Source of the DNA: a virus
Reading direction: 5' to 3' (one strand)
Virus record (IMG/VR): IMGVR_UViG_3300013130_000030
Location: 1-28,423 of that record
DNA length: 28,423 nucleotides
This document shows positions 2,017 to 23,400 of the stretch, in pieces; the first letter of the stretch is position 1; the number at the start of each line of letters is the position of its first letter. The notes beneath the pieces are model-generated. The model was not told the DNA's origin, searched no databases, and saw nothing but the letters and a program-made list of their open reading frames with translations. Made by a program: the position numbers and the translations under genes.

Positions 2017-2159
2017 AATAGGGCCGAATGGATAAAATATCTTTCGGACTTCCACCACCTTGTTTTTTCTAAACAAGGAAACAAATTAAATATGTTTCCA
2101 TATTAAACCACGTTTAATTTTACTTATGGTTTCTTTTCTTACGTTAAAATTATAAAACA

Positions 2160-2227
2160 CCACAATACCCATTAATAATACAAGGATGTTTTATAAATGT
2201 AATGGTCTTCTTTTGTCTTCTCGCCAT
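2160..2227 (-). pseudogene. Decayed GIY-YIG endonuclease gene behind the tmRNA
   Basis: The first codons (MARRQKK) match the intact GIY-YIG gene at 18532-19176. A net frame change follows. The segment for H-Y-I-Y-K-T continues in another frame and then reaches stops within about 30 codons. No trace of the C-terminal two thirds remains; 2020-2160 holds only A/T-rich sequence with a few hairpins. The remnant begins 44 nt downstream of the tmRNA 3' end, just as the intact gene begins downstream of tRNA-Leu(TAA). Confidence 0.75.
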
Positions 2228-2266
2228 ATCTATAATTTACATATGACGAGAAGGTACAAAAGTTCC
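2168..2266 (-). repeat. Copy 1 of the GIY-YIG leader and inverted repeat
   Basis: About 100 bp closely match 19117-19221. The repeat includes an inverted repeat in which CTTTTGT.CTTCTCGcCATAT faces ATATgACGAGAAG..ACAAAAG across the start codon. It begins only 4 nt beyond the tmRNA discriminator base. Confidence 0.8.
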
Positions 2267-2286
2267 GGCGTGGAGGTGGAGGGTTT

Positions 2287-2508
2287 CGTAAATACTCAAT
2301 AATTTTCATTACTGTTTGGACTATATCATCATCTCATTGAGATGTCGGACGCTCTTGCTGGTTATTAAGTGTGTCGCCACACTCCAGTAGTCTCTGCACC
2401 TTCTTACTCTGTAAGCTTGGCTCAGGATTGCCATCACCATTACGTGTTAAGGTTTCCCTGAGTTCATCCGATTTTTAAACCATTGTCACCAATGGATGGG
2501 TCCGAAAT
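2287..2508 (-). ncRNA. Group I intron in the tmRNA T loop
   Basis: All core helices can be drawn. P1 pairs GGGTTTG (exon) with CGGACCC. P2 is CATTG/CAATG, P3 TCGGATG/CGTCCGA, P4 CTCAGG/CCTGAG, P6 CTTAC/GTAAG, P7 GACTA/TAGTC, P8 CATCTC/GAGATG and P9 CAGTAAT/ATTATTG. The conserved GTGCAGAGACTA and GATATAGTCC strands are present. Extra hairpins after P7 (GTGTG/CACAC within CTGG/CCAG) suggest subgroup IA. There is no internal ORF. The exact junction is ambiguous by one G: ending the intron on the usual terminal G makes the 5' exon end in G rather than U. The spliced product is the same either way. Confidence 0.9.
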
Positions 2509-2742
2509 CAAACCCTCGTCCTGCGTTACATTACTAACGTCTTCTACATGTTTATTCCATTTTAATCTAAACGGACAAAATATTTTATTTAGTCAAGATG
2601 GTTTTTATGGAACCAAATAAACAAATGTACCCTCATAACGGCTTACCCATTTGCCTGAGACACTTTAGGTGGTACTCACCTATACTACGACTTCTGTTGC
2701 TAGGTTATATGTCTGCCGACCCCATAGTAACACCTAATCTGA

Positions 2743-2808
2743 TTAGGCAGCTACTGTTGCACCTTCAGTCACAAAGTGGCCTACAGTTGCGTTTGCAAAT
2801 ACATTGCC
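2743..2808 (-). other. tmRNA tag reading frame
   Basis: From a GGC codon after TTAAAT (Gly is the usual first tag residue in Bacteroidota) the frame encodes 21 residues, starting GNVFANATV and ending TEGATVAA, then TAA. Two in-frame GCA codons or a later GGC could also be the resume codon. The VAA ending fits protease-recognised tags, but the length is unusual. Confidence 0.6.
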
Positions 2809-2904
2809 ATTTAAAAGTTCAATACGTGTATTTACGTGATAGTATTATTTCACGACATGCTTACCCATTACTAATCAATAACCAGTCAAATCCAAAAACA
2901 CCCC

Positions 2905-2933
2905 CAATAATTCAAAGAACTTCTACAAAGATA
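2905..2933 (-). promoter_or_regulatory. tmRNA promoter box and boxA-like leader
   Basis: A TATCTTTG -7 box lies at 2933-2926. Between it and the mature 5' end is GTTCTTTGAATTATTG (2920-2905), a boxA-like sequence also found before three tRNA units. Confidence 0.6.
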
Positions 2934-2971: not shown

Positions 2972-3343
2972 ATGTGGTTAGAAATAATAAATATAACAAA
3001 AGACTTAATCGGTAACCTGATTAAATTTAAAAAAGAAGAAAAAGAAAAAATTTCAAAACTTTTAAATGAAATATCAGATTTGTTAATGTCGGTTTCTCAA
3101 GATTTAGAAAATAATCAGTACCCTCATTCAAGTTGCTCAATGATGCAAGTATTAACAAAGGAATTTTACGATAAAGTTAAATTTACTCTTAAAGAAGAAA
3201 ACTCAATTCATTTAGAACATCTGTTAATACAAGCCTCATTCTTAGAGAGAGAATTTGCTCTTAGAGGTGAACCTGAGACCATTGTAAAATTAAAAGAAGC
3301 TTCTGGTGAATTTAAAGCCTTTTCAATTTTACTTAAAAATTAA
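2972..3343 (+). CDS. Helical protein of unknown function
   Basis: A 123-aa protein that I do not recognise. It is predicted to be largely helical: a Lys/Glu-rich stretch (residues 19-35) is followed by amphipathic helices and an L-x-x-A-S-F-L-E-R-E-F segment near residue 90. There is no membrane segment or signal peptide. The start codon lies 4 nt after a GATATTTATA motif. The stop overlaps the stop of the convergent 63-aa gene by 4 bp. Confidence 0.65.
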   Translation: MWLEIINITKDLIGNLIKFKKEEKEKISKLLNEISDLLMSVSQDLENNQYPHSSCSMMQVLTKEFYDKVKFTLKEENSIHLEHLLIQASFLEREFALRGEPETIVKLKEASGEFKAFSILLKN

Positions 3344-3531
3344 AGTGAACCCAAAGACATAGCTTTTCTTTGTAATTCTACCATTTCTTTTTGTAAGTCA
3401 TCAATTTTTTTATTGTCCTCAGTGGTCAAATCAAATCTACTTTTAATTAAAGATACTTCTCTTGCTTTTTGATCATACTCTATAAGTAATTTATCATAAA
3501 GCCGTGCTTTCTCATCATTCGTCATTCCCAT
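3340..3531 (-). CDS. Small coiled-coil protein
   Basis: A 63-aa protein. Residues 25-55 form a likely coiled coil rich in K, E, D and L. The start could be the first ATG (MGMTNDEK) or the ATG two codons later. It lies convergent to the 2972 gene with a 4-bp overlap. Not recognised; perhaps a small phage structural or regulatory protein. Confidence 0.55.
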   Translation of the reverse strand: MGMTNDEKARLYDKLLIEYDQKAREVSLIKSRFDLTTEDNKKIDDLQKEMVELQRKAMSLGSL

Positions 3532-3576
3532 AATATATATTTTTTAATAATTATAGTTATATATTGTTATAAGTAA

Positions 3577-3993
3577 ATGGGGTTAAGAAAAAACAAAAAA
3601 GGTTTTAAATTGTATGAACTAACTGAGGAGGAGATTTATAAAATTATGCCCAAACTAAAAAAAAGAAACTTGGGTGATATAAAAGATGATGATAAACGTA
3701 TTTTTTATTTAAGAACGTGGTTGATTACAGAAATGCAACCACTACATAAACTGCCAAACTATAATAAACGTTGTTGGGGTGGTTCTGGGTGTTATGAATT
3801 AGACCATATATTATCTATAGCAACTTCGTATTTAGAAGGTATCCCACCACATAAAGTAGGTTCATTAGAAAACCTCAGATTCATACCAAAAAATGAAAAT
3901 AGAAATAAAAGTTATAAATTAACTGAAGAATCACATAAAGTTTTAAGGAAATTTAAGCGAAAAGGTGATATTTATAAAAAAAGAAATAAATAA
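3577..3993 (+). CDS. HNH endonuclease-like protein
   Basis: A 138-aa basic protein. Around residues 64-112 it has C-x-G-G-S-G-C-Y-E-L-D-H-I-L-S, followed by S-L-E-N-L-R-F-I-P-K-N-E-N-R-N-K-S. This is an HNH-type fold: paired Cys, an E-L-D-H first histidine, and a SLENLxxxxxxxNxxK C-terminal half. It may be a free-standing homing-type nuclease or one acting on packaged or foreign DNA. Its stop overlaps the next ATG by 1 bp, so the two genes are probably translationally coupled. The N-terminal 55 residues are basic and could help bind DNA. Confidence 0.75.
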   Translation: MGLRKNKKGFKLYELTEEEIYKIMPKLKKRNLGDIKDDDKRIFYLRTWLITEMQPLHKLPNYNKRCWGGSGCYELDHILSIATSYLEGIPPHKVGSLENLRFIPKNENRNKSYKLTEESHKVLRKFKRKGDIYKKRNK

Positions 3994-5417
3994 TGGAATT
4001 TAAATTATCTCAAATTTTAGAATCTACCATATTATTAGAAGGTAGAAGAGAAGAAGTTATTAGTAGATACGGTGAAGATCACACAGATTTAGTTGACATG
4101 TTTGTGGAAGTTGACCCGTCAGGTAATAACAAATATCTTGAATGGATGGTTAAAACTGCTTTAGGTAAAAACCAAGATGACCGTATACCAATGGCTGATG
4201 ACATAGCTAAAACTGTGGTTGATTTCCATAGAAATTTAACTAGAATTAGTAATAAAGATATTAATAGTTATAAATCTTTAAATGATTTAAAATCAGTTGT
4301 TGAGGATGCTTTAGTTAAAGAAAAAGAAAAAAGAATTTCTAAGGAAGCTGCACAAATATATAAAGAAGGTGGTGTTGTTATTTATGCACCGTTTACTGTT
4401 GAGGCTTCTTGTAAATACGGTGCTGGTTCTAAATGGTGTATTGCTGGTACAAGTGATGCTAGAGGTTTAAATACTTATTTTGATCAATATAGTGAACATT
4501 CTAATTTCTATTTCTTTATTAATAATAATTTAGTTGGTAAAGATAATGTAAATTACAAATACGCTTTACAATGGAGATTTGATGGTGGTCAAGAAGATTT
4601 AACTTGGTGGGATGCTAAAGATGATTCTCATTCTACTCCACCTGATTGGGTAACCCCTGAAATGATGGAAGCTGTTAGAGCATTTAATCCTTCACATACT
4701 AAGAAAAAATTACAAACTAAAATTGCTTCTTTTATTGCTGACCCTAATTATGAAAATTATAATAAGTTCAAAGATTATTTAACACCTGAACAAAAAACGT
4801 CAACTGTTAATAAAATCATTGAAAAAGGTAATCTTAACTCTAGAGCTTTCGGTATTTTAGCTTCTGACCTTAATGAAAAACAAAAAATGGATTTCATTAC
4901 CAATTATGTTAAAGGTACAGTTAATGCAAACGATTATAAATCCATGAAACAATATTTAACTGAGTTACAAAAAATGACTTTGGTTAAATACAACCCATCT
5001 ATTCTTAACAATTACGATGTGATGACTGAACTGAATAATGAGTTAACAGATGATCAAAAATATAAATTATCTAAAGAAGTTGATGCGAAACAAATTAACA
5101 ATACTGACAGTAAAGTTTTATTTAGAAAATGGTCTATGTCACCTGAAGAAAGAGCTAAACATGGTCAAACTTCTTTCTATGTCTTTTTATCTAATCCTGA
5201 AAATTTTGTTGAGAAATTGGTTAAGGTTGACCCTCTAGACCCAGAATCATATAGAACAATTAATATGATGAAACTTAGAAAACAAGTCCAACCAAATACA
5301 AATATGTACGGTATTAAAACTCAGGCAGGTTTATTAGATGAATATGTGGGTAAAAATACATCTAGTATTAATCCAGCTGTCTTAGATAGTATAAAAGAAA
5401 AAGCTGTAAAGATATAA
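3993..5417 (+). CDS. Large candidate internal head protein with KWCIA motif
   Basis: A 474-aa protein starting MEFKLSQILESTILLEGRRE. Residues 8-10 (I-L-E) before S11 fit an [IL]xE prohead-protease site. Residues 130-195 contain IYAPFTVEASCKYGAGSKWCIAG, then a Tyr/Phe-rich strand segment (FYFFINN). I recall 'GxGxKWCxA' segments in other large phage proteins of unknown function. The C-terminal half (about 235-474) is a series of helical segments with repeated L-T-x-x-Q-K (EQKTS, EKQKM, LQKMT, DDQKYK), suggesting a helical repeat. It overlaps the HNH stop by 1 bp and ends just before a strong terminator. Packaging is inference. Confidence 0.65.
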   Translation: MEFKLSQILESTILLEGRREEVISRYGEDHTDLVDMFVEVDPSGNNKYLEWMVKTALGKNQDDRIPMADDIAKTVVDFHRNLTRISNKDINSYKSLNDLKSVVEDALVKEKEKRISKEAAQIYKEGGVVIYAPFTVEASCKYGAGSKWCIAGTSDARGLNTYFDQYSEHSNFYFFINNNLVGKDNVNYKYALQWRFDGGQEDLTWWDAKDDSHSTPPDWVTPEMMEAVRAFNPSHTKKKLQTKIASFIADPNYENYNKFKDYLTPEQKTSTVNKIIEKGNLNSRAFGILASDLNEKQKMDFITNYVKGTVNANDYKSMKQYLTELQKMTLVKYNPSILNNYDVMTELNNELTDDQKYKLSKEVDAKQINNTDSKVLFRKWSMSPEERAKHGQTSFYVFLSNPENFVEKLVKVDPLDPESYRTINMMKLRKQVQPNTNMYGIKTQAGLLDEYVGKNTSSINPAVLDSIKEKAVKI

Positions 5418-5420
5418 TTG

Positions 5421-5448
5421 AAAAGGGGACTCATGAGTCCCCTTTTTT
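5421..5448. terminator. Bidirectional terminator
   Basis: A perfect palindrome, GGGGACTCATGAGTCCCC, is flanked by an A run on the left and a T run on the right. It ends the plus-strand 474-aa gene and, read the other way, the minus-strand lipoprotein gene. Confidence 0.85.
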
Positions 5449-5908
5449 ATTCATGATAAGTAAATTGTATCACAGGATAATTAGGTTTACCACTGGTATC
5501 TAAACCTTCTTGTTCTATTCCTTGGTAAGCGTAGTAATCTCCACTGTTAGAAGTATCAATAACCTTTCTAGATACCATCACACCATCAATATAAATTACC
5601 ATCTCAAACATGTAATCTACTGTAGGTGAAAAAGAAAAAACTACAGGTTCACCATCAACCAATTGCCAATACTCATAATCCCATGTGTAAGGAACTTGAC
5701 CCAGTATTGTTGGAAATGTAGGTTCCACATCATCCTTATAGTAAGGTTTACAAACCATACTGTTCATCACTGGCACACCTGTTGGGTCTGAACCCTCAAA
5801 TATATTAACTTCAAATTTAATTTTATGAAATTTAATTTCTTCTTTCTGACAAGAAACAAAATTTAACCCAAGGGTTATAAGTAAGATGTATTTGATTATA
5901 TTTTTCAT
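5447..5908 (-). CDS. Phage-encoded lipoprotein
   Basis: A 153-aa protein with a type II signal peptide: K at 3 and 6, a hydrophobic core (about 7-17), and lipobox F-V-S-C at 18-21. The mature part is probably beta-rich and has no recognised domain. It should be anchored to the host envelope, perhaps on the outer membrane, where phage lipoproteins often block superinfection; this role is inference. A TATATTTG box ends exactly 4 nt before the ATG, so the transcript may be leaderless. The 3' end shares the terminator at 5421. Confidence 0.75.
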   Translation of the reverse strand: MKNIIKYILLITLGLNFVSCQKEEIKFHKIKFEVNIFEGSDPTGVPVMNSMVCKPYYKDDVEPTFPTILGQVPYTWDYEYWQLVDGEPVVFSFSPTVDYMFEMVIYIDGVMVSRKVIDTSNSGDYYAYQGIEQEGLDTSGKPNYPVIQFTYHE

Positions 5909-9084: not shown

Positions 9085-9762
9085 TTAATCTTTTTTTTCA
9101 GTTGCGTATTTTATACCCATAATTGTACCTACTATTGAAAAGGCATTTGTTAAAAGTATTCCAAATATGTTAGACCAAGCAGCACTTATAACTTGTGTGT
9201 CTTTACCCATAATCATTGTAAACACATAAACACCAGTTGTGATAAATCCAACACCAACTATAATATATAACGCTACTCTTACTATTATTGATATTAATTC
9301 GTTTTGTGTCTTTTTCTGTAATAAGTCTAAATCATTTTCAGCATTTTGTTTTGCTGTTTCAGCACTTATCCTTGCTTGTTCTGATTTAACCATTTCATTT
9401 TTTAACTCTTCAGTTAATCTAAGATTATCTTGTTTCCATTCATTTAATTCCCTGTTTTGAACTTCGAAAGTTAATCTAGACTCTTCAACTTCTCTTAGTG
9501 TCTCTTGGAGTTCCGTCATAATTCTTTCATTCTCTCTGTTAGCCACAACCAAATCATCGTTTTGTTTTTGTATCTTTTTGGTCATTTCAAGACGTTTCTT
9601 CCTCTTTTCAGAATCTTTTTCTTCACAAGTTTTTAAATAAATTCTAAATTCCTCATCATCTTCACCATCAATAAGTTTAGTGATATTTCCTTCTAGACCT
9701 ATACCTTTTTTATTGTATAAATCCATTAAAGTTTTTTTGGTATTTGAATCTATTTTAATCAT
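9085..9762 (-). CDS. Coiled-coil protein with two C-terminal membrane segments
   Basis: A 225-aa protein. Residues 45-155 form a long, highly charged coiled coil. Two hydrophobic segments follow at about 158-184 and 196-217, leaving a short basic tail. The N-terminal 40 residues are small and charged. No enzyme motif is visible. The start overlaps the response-regulator stop by 4 bp, so it is the last gene of a signalling cassette and a plausible output or partner of it. It could be a membrane effector, scaffold or anchor. It has no promoter of its own. Confidence 0.7.
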   Translation of the reverse strand: MIKIDSNTKKTLMDLYNKKGIGLEGNITKLIDGEDDEEFRIYLKTCEEKDSEKRKKRLEMTKKIQKQNDDLVVANRENERIMTELQETLREVEESRLTFEVQNRELNEWKQDNLRLTEELKNEMVKSEQARISAETAKQNAENDLDLLQKKTQNELISIIVRVALYIIVGVGFITTGVYVFTMIMGKDTQVISAAWSNIFGILLTNAFSIVGTIMGIKYATEKKD

Positions 9763-15170: not shown

Positions 15171-15281
15171 TACGCAAAGAAGGATTCGAACCTACAAGAC
15201 CTACTCTTATCGACCCAAAGGGTTAGATTATTTTCGGTCAGAGTTGTTACACCCCGTGTTTACCAATTTCACCACTTGCGT
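15171..15281 (-). tRNA. tRNA-Leu-like gene with an enlarged anticodon loop
   Basis: Acceptor ACGCAAG/TTTGCGT pairs (one G-U). The D arm is Leu-type (GTGAAATTGGTAAACAC) and the T loop TTCGAAT is normal, with one T-T mismatch in the stem. GGGT and ACCC can form the anticodon stem, but the loop between them is 27 nt rather than 7. No anticodon can be read with confidence. It may carry a 20-nt insert or be a degenerate gene. Confidence 0.55.
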
Positions 15282-18531: not shown

Positions 18532-19176
18532 TTATAATTTTCTACCTTTAAACCAACCCTCACAAAGGTAATAATTTATTTCTTCTTTTTTAATTTTTTT
18601 ATTTTCTTTTCTGTTGTTAACCCAACAAGTTCCATATTGGGAATTTTTTTCGCCTTTTTGATTAATAGAATTTTTTTCACCTATTTTTCTTTTAGTTTCT
18701 TCAGTATGAGTTCTACCACCAAAAGTATTATGGTTAAAATTTATTTTTTTTAAACCTTCTATTATTTTTTGTTTCTTTTTTTCTAACCATTTAGGGTCAT
18801 TCTCATATAACCATTTAATCCTTTCGTGAGATGGAATCCAATTGTTACTTTCAATAAATTTTTTTCTATGTTCTTCACTAACAAACCCACCATCACCACC
18901 TAATTTAAGGTTCATACAAAGTTCTTCAGATAATAAGTCTTCATTAACAATTTCCTTTTCACGTTTTTTTAACTCTTTTCTGTTTTTTAAAAACTCAAGA
19001 ATTTCTTTTGTATGATTTTCCTTTCCATGGTAATTAATAGAATTCCATAATTTCTTACCACTACCTAAATATCCATCCTCTAGATTATCTGTTGAATGCA
19101 TTCCTATGTAGTATTTCCCATTTACATTACAAGTTGTTTTATAAATGTAGTGATACTTCTTTTGTCTTCTCGCCAT
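18532..19176 (-). CDS. GIY-YIG homing endonuclease (Seg/NUMOD3 type)
   Basis: A 214-aa basic protein. The GIY-YIG core is at 9-50: H-Y-I-Y-K-T-T, N-G-K-Y-Y-I-G-M-H-S-T and D-G-Y-L-G-S-G-K. The C-terminus has NUMOD3-like DNA-binding repeats (GGRTHTEETKRKIGEKNS, GEKNSQYGTCWVNN). It is tucked between tRNA-Leu(TAA), 48 nt upstream, and tRNA-Glu, 5 nt downstream, without its own terminator. The first 30 codons and the upstream leader match a decayed copy behind the tmRNA at 2160-2266. A T/A-rich ATATTTATATATAAAG motif and an inverted repeat precede the ATG. Probably a free-standing homing enzyme that targets phage tRNA loci. Confidence 0.9.
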   Translation of the reverse strand: MARRQKKYHYIYKTTCNVNGKYYIGMHSTDNLEDGYLGSGKKLWNSINYHGKENHTKEILEFLKNRKELKKREKEIVNEDLLSEELCMNLKLGGDGGFVSEEHRKKFIESNNWIPSHERIKWLYENDPKWLEKKKQKIIEGLKKINFNHNTFGGRTHTEETKRKIGEKNSINQKGEKNSQYGTCWVNNRKENKKIKKEEINYYLCEGWFKGRKL

Positions 19177-23326: not shown

Positions 23327-23400
23327 TAGGGAAGGTGGGAGTTGAACCCACATGTGACCAATTACTCTTTCAACACGTTATCAGCGTGAGGAGATACGAC
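23327..23400 (-). pseudogene. tRNA remnant, Ile(GAT)-like 3' half
   Basis: The T arm GTGGG-TTCAACT-CCCAC and acceptor 3' strand CTTCCCT are normal, and CACG-CTGATAA-CGTG looks like a GAT anticodon arm. No D arm or 5' acceptor strand (AGGGAAG) exists before the boxA-like element at 23410-23425. The spacing between anticodon and T arm is too long. Probably a deleted or rearranged gene. Confidence 0.5.

Follow-up and report, generated by a model that had tools for sequence, protein, structure and literature searches.

A tmRNA gene split in its T loop by a compact group I intron was found in the window, that is, in the whole 28,423-nt (28.4 kb) stretch of an IMG/VR-type virus record that was analysed here. 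T-loop introns of tmRNA genes are known from bacteria; their carriage by phages, and a lineage of them that ends in A, are the new part. The anatomy of the gene, the fold of the intron, its junction, its recurrence in phages and the existence of endonuclease-bearing relatives can be read directly in the sequences.

The interrupted tmRNA gene and its intron

The features of the locus are as follows.

2926 to 2933, minus strand: -7 promoter element of the Bacteroidota type, TATCTTTG (TAnnTTTG), its first base 28 nt upstream of the mature 5' end
2511 to 2905, minus strand: 5' exon of the tmRNA (RF00023, 46.8 bits; about 83% DNA identity to the intronless orthologue L255)
2743 to 2796, minus strand: tag frame ANATVGHFVTEGATVAA with its stop (ARAGORN calls the identical tag in the intronless orthologues L255 and L260)
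2498 to 2515, minus strand: P1, formed by exon GGGUU (2515-2511) and guide GACCC (2502-2498), with a U.G wobble at the 5' splice site
2289 to 2510, minus strand: group I intron, 222 nt, at T-loop position 3 (RF00028; intronless alleles; homologues; covariation)
2297 to 2314, minus strand: P9 hairpin CAGUAAU-GAAA-AUUAUUG (covarying helix 12; RF00028 alignment)
2271 to 2288, minus strand: 3' exon, with T loop CGAAA, T stem CCCTC, acceptor CACCTCC and discriminator A
2085 to 2270, minus strand: insert directly 3' of the tmRNA (break of collinearity; absent from L092 and L255)

The 5' exon extends from the mature 5' end GGGGGTG (position 2905, reading GGGGGTGTTTTTGGATTTGAC) through the T stem GAGGG to the first two bases of the T loop (TT). 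After the interruption, CCCTC-CACCTCC-A completes the T stem and the acceptor by base pairing; the pairing of GGGGGTG with CACCTCC places U at position 70, giving the alanine determinant G3.U70. The tag frame is open upstream as far as GGC at 2806-2808, GNVFANATVGHFVTEGATVAA, and its differences from the tag of L009 are mostly synonymous. The tmRNA with its leader is about 83% identical to that of L255 over 453 aligned bases, and ARAGORN calls both L255 and L260 as tmRNAs with the same tag as in the window. Thus, the acceptor, T stem and tag frame described in a preliminary description of this DNA are all confirmed.

That description had looked to the Rfam models for a check. The group I model gave a clear match, at positions 2297-2596 on the minus strand (RF00028, 94 bits, E = 3e-23; gathering score, 50), whereas the tmRNA model (RF00023, positions 2490-2905, minus strand) scored 46.8 bits, marginally short of the cut-off (47), an effect of the broken T arm, which the model has to span. 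Four relatives with the same interruption, L008, L250, L087 and L033, score above this cut-off (56.3, 56.2, 56.0 and 67.7 bits). ARAGORN called nothing on the window or on five versions spliced in silico, probably because CCA is not encoded in the window; it is encoded in L092, L009 and L255. The insert in the 3' flank looks like the first part of a GIY-YIG homing endonuclease gene with a frameshift (MARRQKK...); tblastn aligns it weakly (E = 0.002) with the intact gene at 18532-19176. Given this insert and the CCA that is not encoded, the window copy of the tmRNA could be impaired. GIY-YIG-like genes also lie just after the tmRNA in L254, L257, L258, L279 and L076.

The window intron is a group I intron by its P3-P8 core with conserved P7, an assignment made from the sequence that makes no claim of canonical 3' splicing. 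The T arm and intron together (239 nt) fold at -69.6 kcal/mol (z = -4.2 against shuffles). In a model of 57 pairs (P2-P9, with the P3/P7 pseudoknot), 90.5% of the cells are paired across 20 phage homologues, and double changes occur at 28 of the 57 pairs (124 such cells, as compared with 43 in shuffles); when the partners are slid, pairing falls to 41% or less. P7 is invariant across the homologues, so that its support is conservation, not covariation. P7.1 and P7.2 (helices 9 and 10) are present between P7 and P3', which suggests subgroup IA2, the subgroup that accounts for more than half of viral group I introns (PMC11835236). The record L024 was excluded from the homologue alignment; its locus at 5255-5484 appears to join a position-2 5' half to a position-3 3' half and is possibly recombinant or misassembled. 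Within the window clade, the core tree (about 150 columns) has weak support, and no firm claim is based on it.

The preliminary description had placed the intron at 2287-2508. Its length of 222 nt holds, but both ends have to be shifted by 2 nt: the first base is 2510 (U), the last base is 2289 (A), and the exons join as TT^CGAAA, at T-loop position 3. With the pattern GGTCGGCAGACATATAACCTAG, related tmRNAs were recognized in 43 viral contigs, most of them intronless. Intronless orthologues read GGACGAGGG-TTCGAAA-CCCTCC, and L255, L260 and L276 read GGACGAGGGTTCGAAACCCTCCACCTCC, which is equal to the window exons joined at TT^CGAAA; L260 is collinear with the window over 127-1978, and both L260 and L255 over 3337-5448. 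A seven-base loop is also restored in about 20 homologous phage introns when their exons are joined as TT^CGANN or T^TCGANN. The guide UUUCG-GACCC pairs across GGGUU^CGAAA with no gap, its 5' part UUUCG pairing with the 3' exon CGAAA to form P10. The U.G at -1 and the P1/P10 guide recur in nearly every homologue, and in position-2 introns, which lie one base earlier, the guide wobble has likewise moved by one base. On the basis of the intronless alleles, the homologous joints and the gapless guide, the intron is 2289-2510. Ends at 2287-2508 would give TTTGAAA, in place of the TTCGAAA of the intronless orthologues, and would put G instead of U at -1. The site corresponds to position 3 of the bacterial T-loop tmRNA introns (PMC11915505), and the loop is restored to seven bases.

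The terminal A

The last base of the intron is A in the window, L009, L087, L092 and L250, as judged from homology and, for the window, from the intronless allele; this homologous A had been missed previously. G is the last base in the remaining distinct phage introns, at position 3 and position 2 alike. The last G of a group I intron occupies the guanosine pocket in the second step of splicing, and when the pocket pair is changed to A:U the ribozyme prefers A. This A:U change is absent from the A-ending introns: P7 is identical in the A-ending and G-ending sets (GACTA with UAGUC), and the sequence thus shows no alteration of the guanosine pocket. Of the columns that vary in the A-ending set, 16 fall in helices; only a single pair, in one of the sequences, has lost its pairing, a pattern that speaks against simple decay. 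In PMC11915505, boundaries that put G last could be assigned throughout; the only exceptions, 15 sequences, have C at -1.

Three readings of the terminal A come into consideration: a two-base shift, a defect, or slow joining of the exons at their natural site. The last may follow from the A end, given that the G-specific P7 pair is kept. We tentatively raise the possibility that the A-ending phage introns have no need of a terminal G, either by ligation at an A end in a G-specific pocket or by shifting both sites and so borrowing a G from the exon.

A shift of both sites by two bases throughout the A-ending lineage would mean cuts after UUUG and ACG, that is, an intron at 2287-2508 and the product UUUGAAA. 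Then G would again end the intron and the seven-base loop would be kept, and T loops that start with UUUGA do occur in tRNAs of the window. However, the base at -1 would be G paired to C rather than the U.G wobble of the homologues, L092 would acquire UUUAAGG, and UUCGA is found in all intronless orthologues with this T stem, so that we regard such a shift as unlikely.

It is also conceivable, though doubtful, that the A-ending introns are defective in splicing, completing the first step and failing in ligation, and that little or no functional tmRNA is made. The A next to an unchanged G-specific P7 pair would fit this, as would the unencoded CCA and the insert at the 3' end of the window tmRNA, and tmRNA presumably need not be essential to a phage. 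Nevertheless, five contigs share the terminal A with nearly all core pairs kept, and most of the differences within the conserved tag frame are synonymous. Two of the contigs with A-ending introns also carry GOLLD RNA (L250, 9693-10107, 328 bits; L087, 4946-5352, 315 bits).

Occurrence in phages and relation to known introns

A pattern combining P7' with the tmRNA 3' end was found in 33 viral contigs; two of the matches are tRNA-Ala genes and nearly all the others are tmRNAs. A pattern for the 5' side added L295-L298. T-loop tmRNA introns are thus present in more than 30 viral contigs, which appear to be of Bacteroidota-type phages, and the window is not the lone oddity among phages that it had seemed. 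They include the RefSeq crAss-like phage cr128_1 (L006, MT774392/NC_055885.1), whose intron-split tmRNA lies at about 1081-2398, is cut at GACGAGGGTT and resumes at CGAATCCCTCATGCTCC after about 880 nt; neither the tmRNA nor the intron is annotated in the record. Its intron resembles that of the window in lying at tmRNA position 3 and in its guide GACCC, and differs in its last base, G, and in holding, after P9 and on the opposite strand, a 561-nt endonuclease gene (endoVII/HNH-type). In cr106_1, a relative of cr128_1, the annotated tmRNA is uninterrupted. L297 and L298 have ORFs in the same intron with a LAGLIDADG-type motif read by eye (YISGFFDADGS). Judged against these sequences, the window intron looks like a miniature form of a mobile element.

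Some tmRNAs, among them those of L254, L257, L259 and L277, have the T stem CGGAG/CTCCG, not GAGGG/CCCTC. Since this stem would not pair with the intron guide, such alleles may be intron-resistant. A tRNA-Ala(TGC) gene is split in the T loop, apparently at position 2, by a group I intron in L010 (about 9088-9400, 101 bits) and in L070 (about 2219-2530, 104 bits), the 183-kb L010 record having a terminase; group I introns in tRNAs usually lie in the anticodon loop. The window itself has, on the minus strand, a tRNA-like gene of 111 nt (15171-15281, 33 bits) whose insert, near the anticodon/variable region, is unusually long, and an isolated T-arm match (23335-23351), perhaps a decayed tRNA, next to what resembles a degenerate tRNA-Ile(GAT) immediately 5' of tRNA-Arg.

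That the contig is a piece of bacterial chromosome and the tmRNA that of the host is extremely improbable. No capsid or terminase was recognized among the window genes, and these do include an integrase and a histidine kinase, as well as metallophosphoesterases and homing endonucleases. However, one window protein is a T4-type RNA ligase/tail-fibre attachment protein (phrog_562, E = 1e-66), a phage hallmark, and the window is collinear with the intronless 226-kb record G021, in which a terminase is present. Furthermore, the exact motifs were found in none of 395 Bacteroidia and none of 295 Bacteroidales genomes, a search that divergent copies can escape and that therefore gave no direct comparison with a bacterial position-3 intron. 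A terminase is also present on G006 (138.6 kb), G009 and G012, all of which carry an intron-split tmRNA. The 5' end is preceded by TAnnTTTG, at a distance of 28-46 nt, in every one of the 38 phage tmRNA loci examined; this is the -7 element of Bacteroidota and suggests that the hosts of these phages belong to that phylum. The L255 tmRNA body had no match in GenBank phages. With a loose pattern, position-7 introns were recovered from genome contigs in several Oceanobacillus/Bacillus tmRNAs among the matches listed, which serve as a positive control for the pattern method; most of the other listed matches inspected looked like chance.

The preliminary description knew of T-loop tmRNA introns in a few bacteria; they now number 883 sequences in 21 phyla, at positions 7, 2, 3 and 8 (PMC11915505). 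In that survey, which counted 79 phage tmRNAs, position 2 is almost restricted to Anaerolineae and all position-3 cases are from the class Bacteroidia, so none is reported from a phage at the latter site. The window intron is like this bacterial class (PMC11915505) in gene, loop, position 3, the U.G at the 5' site and small size, small introns usually being endonuclease-free; the differences are the phage carriers, with positions 3 and 2, and the terminal A of the window lineage. Introns in protein genes of phages, such as the terminase of a Vibrio phage, have a similar core (about 72-77% identity over 150-190 bases), whereas the gene interrupted in the window encodes a stable RNA. An unannotated intron in Klebsiella phage Muenster (L003, about 1430-1740), near an HNH endonuclease gene, has a close core (75.8% identity to that of the window) and appears to lie in the anticodon loop of a CAT tRNA rather than in a T loop. 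All phage introns known in 2014 were in protein-coding genes (PMC3984707). Ten phages with ssrA have been listed with no mention of introns (PMC4131195), and introns of crAss-like phages have been described with no mention of tmRNA (PMC7886860). We found no report of a T-loop tmRNA intron in a phage in the open-licence literature.

Proposed splicing pathway and significance

We consider it probable that the window carries a self-splicing T-loop group I intron in a phage tmRNA with its own promoter, and that this intron is a nearly neutral, miniature descendant of mobile introns. The tmRNA would be transcribed from the phage promoter in a Bacteroidota-type host and the ribozyme core would fold; guanosine would attack the bond after U55 within P1 (GGGUU.GACCC), and the freed 5' exon would attack the 3' junction, positioned by P10 (UUUCG:CGAAA), to give the T loop UUCGAAA. 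Maturation of the ends, addition of CCA and loading with alanine would follow. The T loop is needed for the tRNA-like fold, so by its anatomy the RNA would have to be spliced before 3' maturation and charging, as had been noted previously. Splicing in cells, the order of processing, charging and the mobility of the window intron are what we infer, the mobility from relatives whose endonuclease genes lie within or next to the tmRNA. Of 76 group I introns predicted in other large gut phages, 37 have metatranscriptomic support for splicing (PMC12363816). Endonuclease-bearing mobile introns would have colonised the conserved T loop, and their miniature descendant would persist because splicing makes it nearly neutral.

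Splicing might instead act as a regulatory switch that ties tmRNA activity to the state of the cell (GTP, temperature or stage of infection), given that 3' maturation and charging have to await a restored T loop, an argument from anatomy only. Related phages, however, have the same tmRNA without the intron, which suggests that a switch is unneeded, and no regulatory element was seen; a switch of this kind is very improbable. A nearly neutral mobile intron fits the data equally well as splicing-based regulation of tmRNA.

In short, T-loop introns of stable RNA genes have a reservoir in phages, which may also be a source of those scattered among bacteria. Because standard annotation missed interrupted tmRNAs, both with ARAGORN on the window and in the RefSeq record of cr128_1, phages may be under-credited with tmRNAs. 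A clade of A-ending introns beside natural G-ending sisters offers a ready comparison for the second splicing step, and a lineage free of the terminal G, if real, would be an exception to the rule held to govern that step in group I introns.
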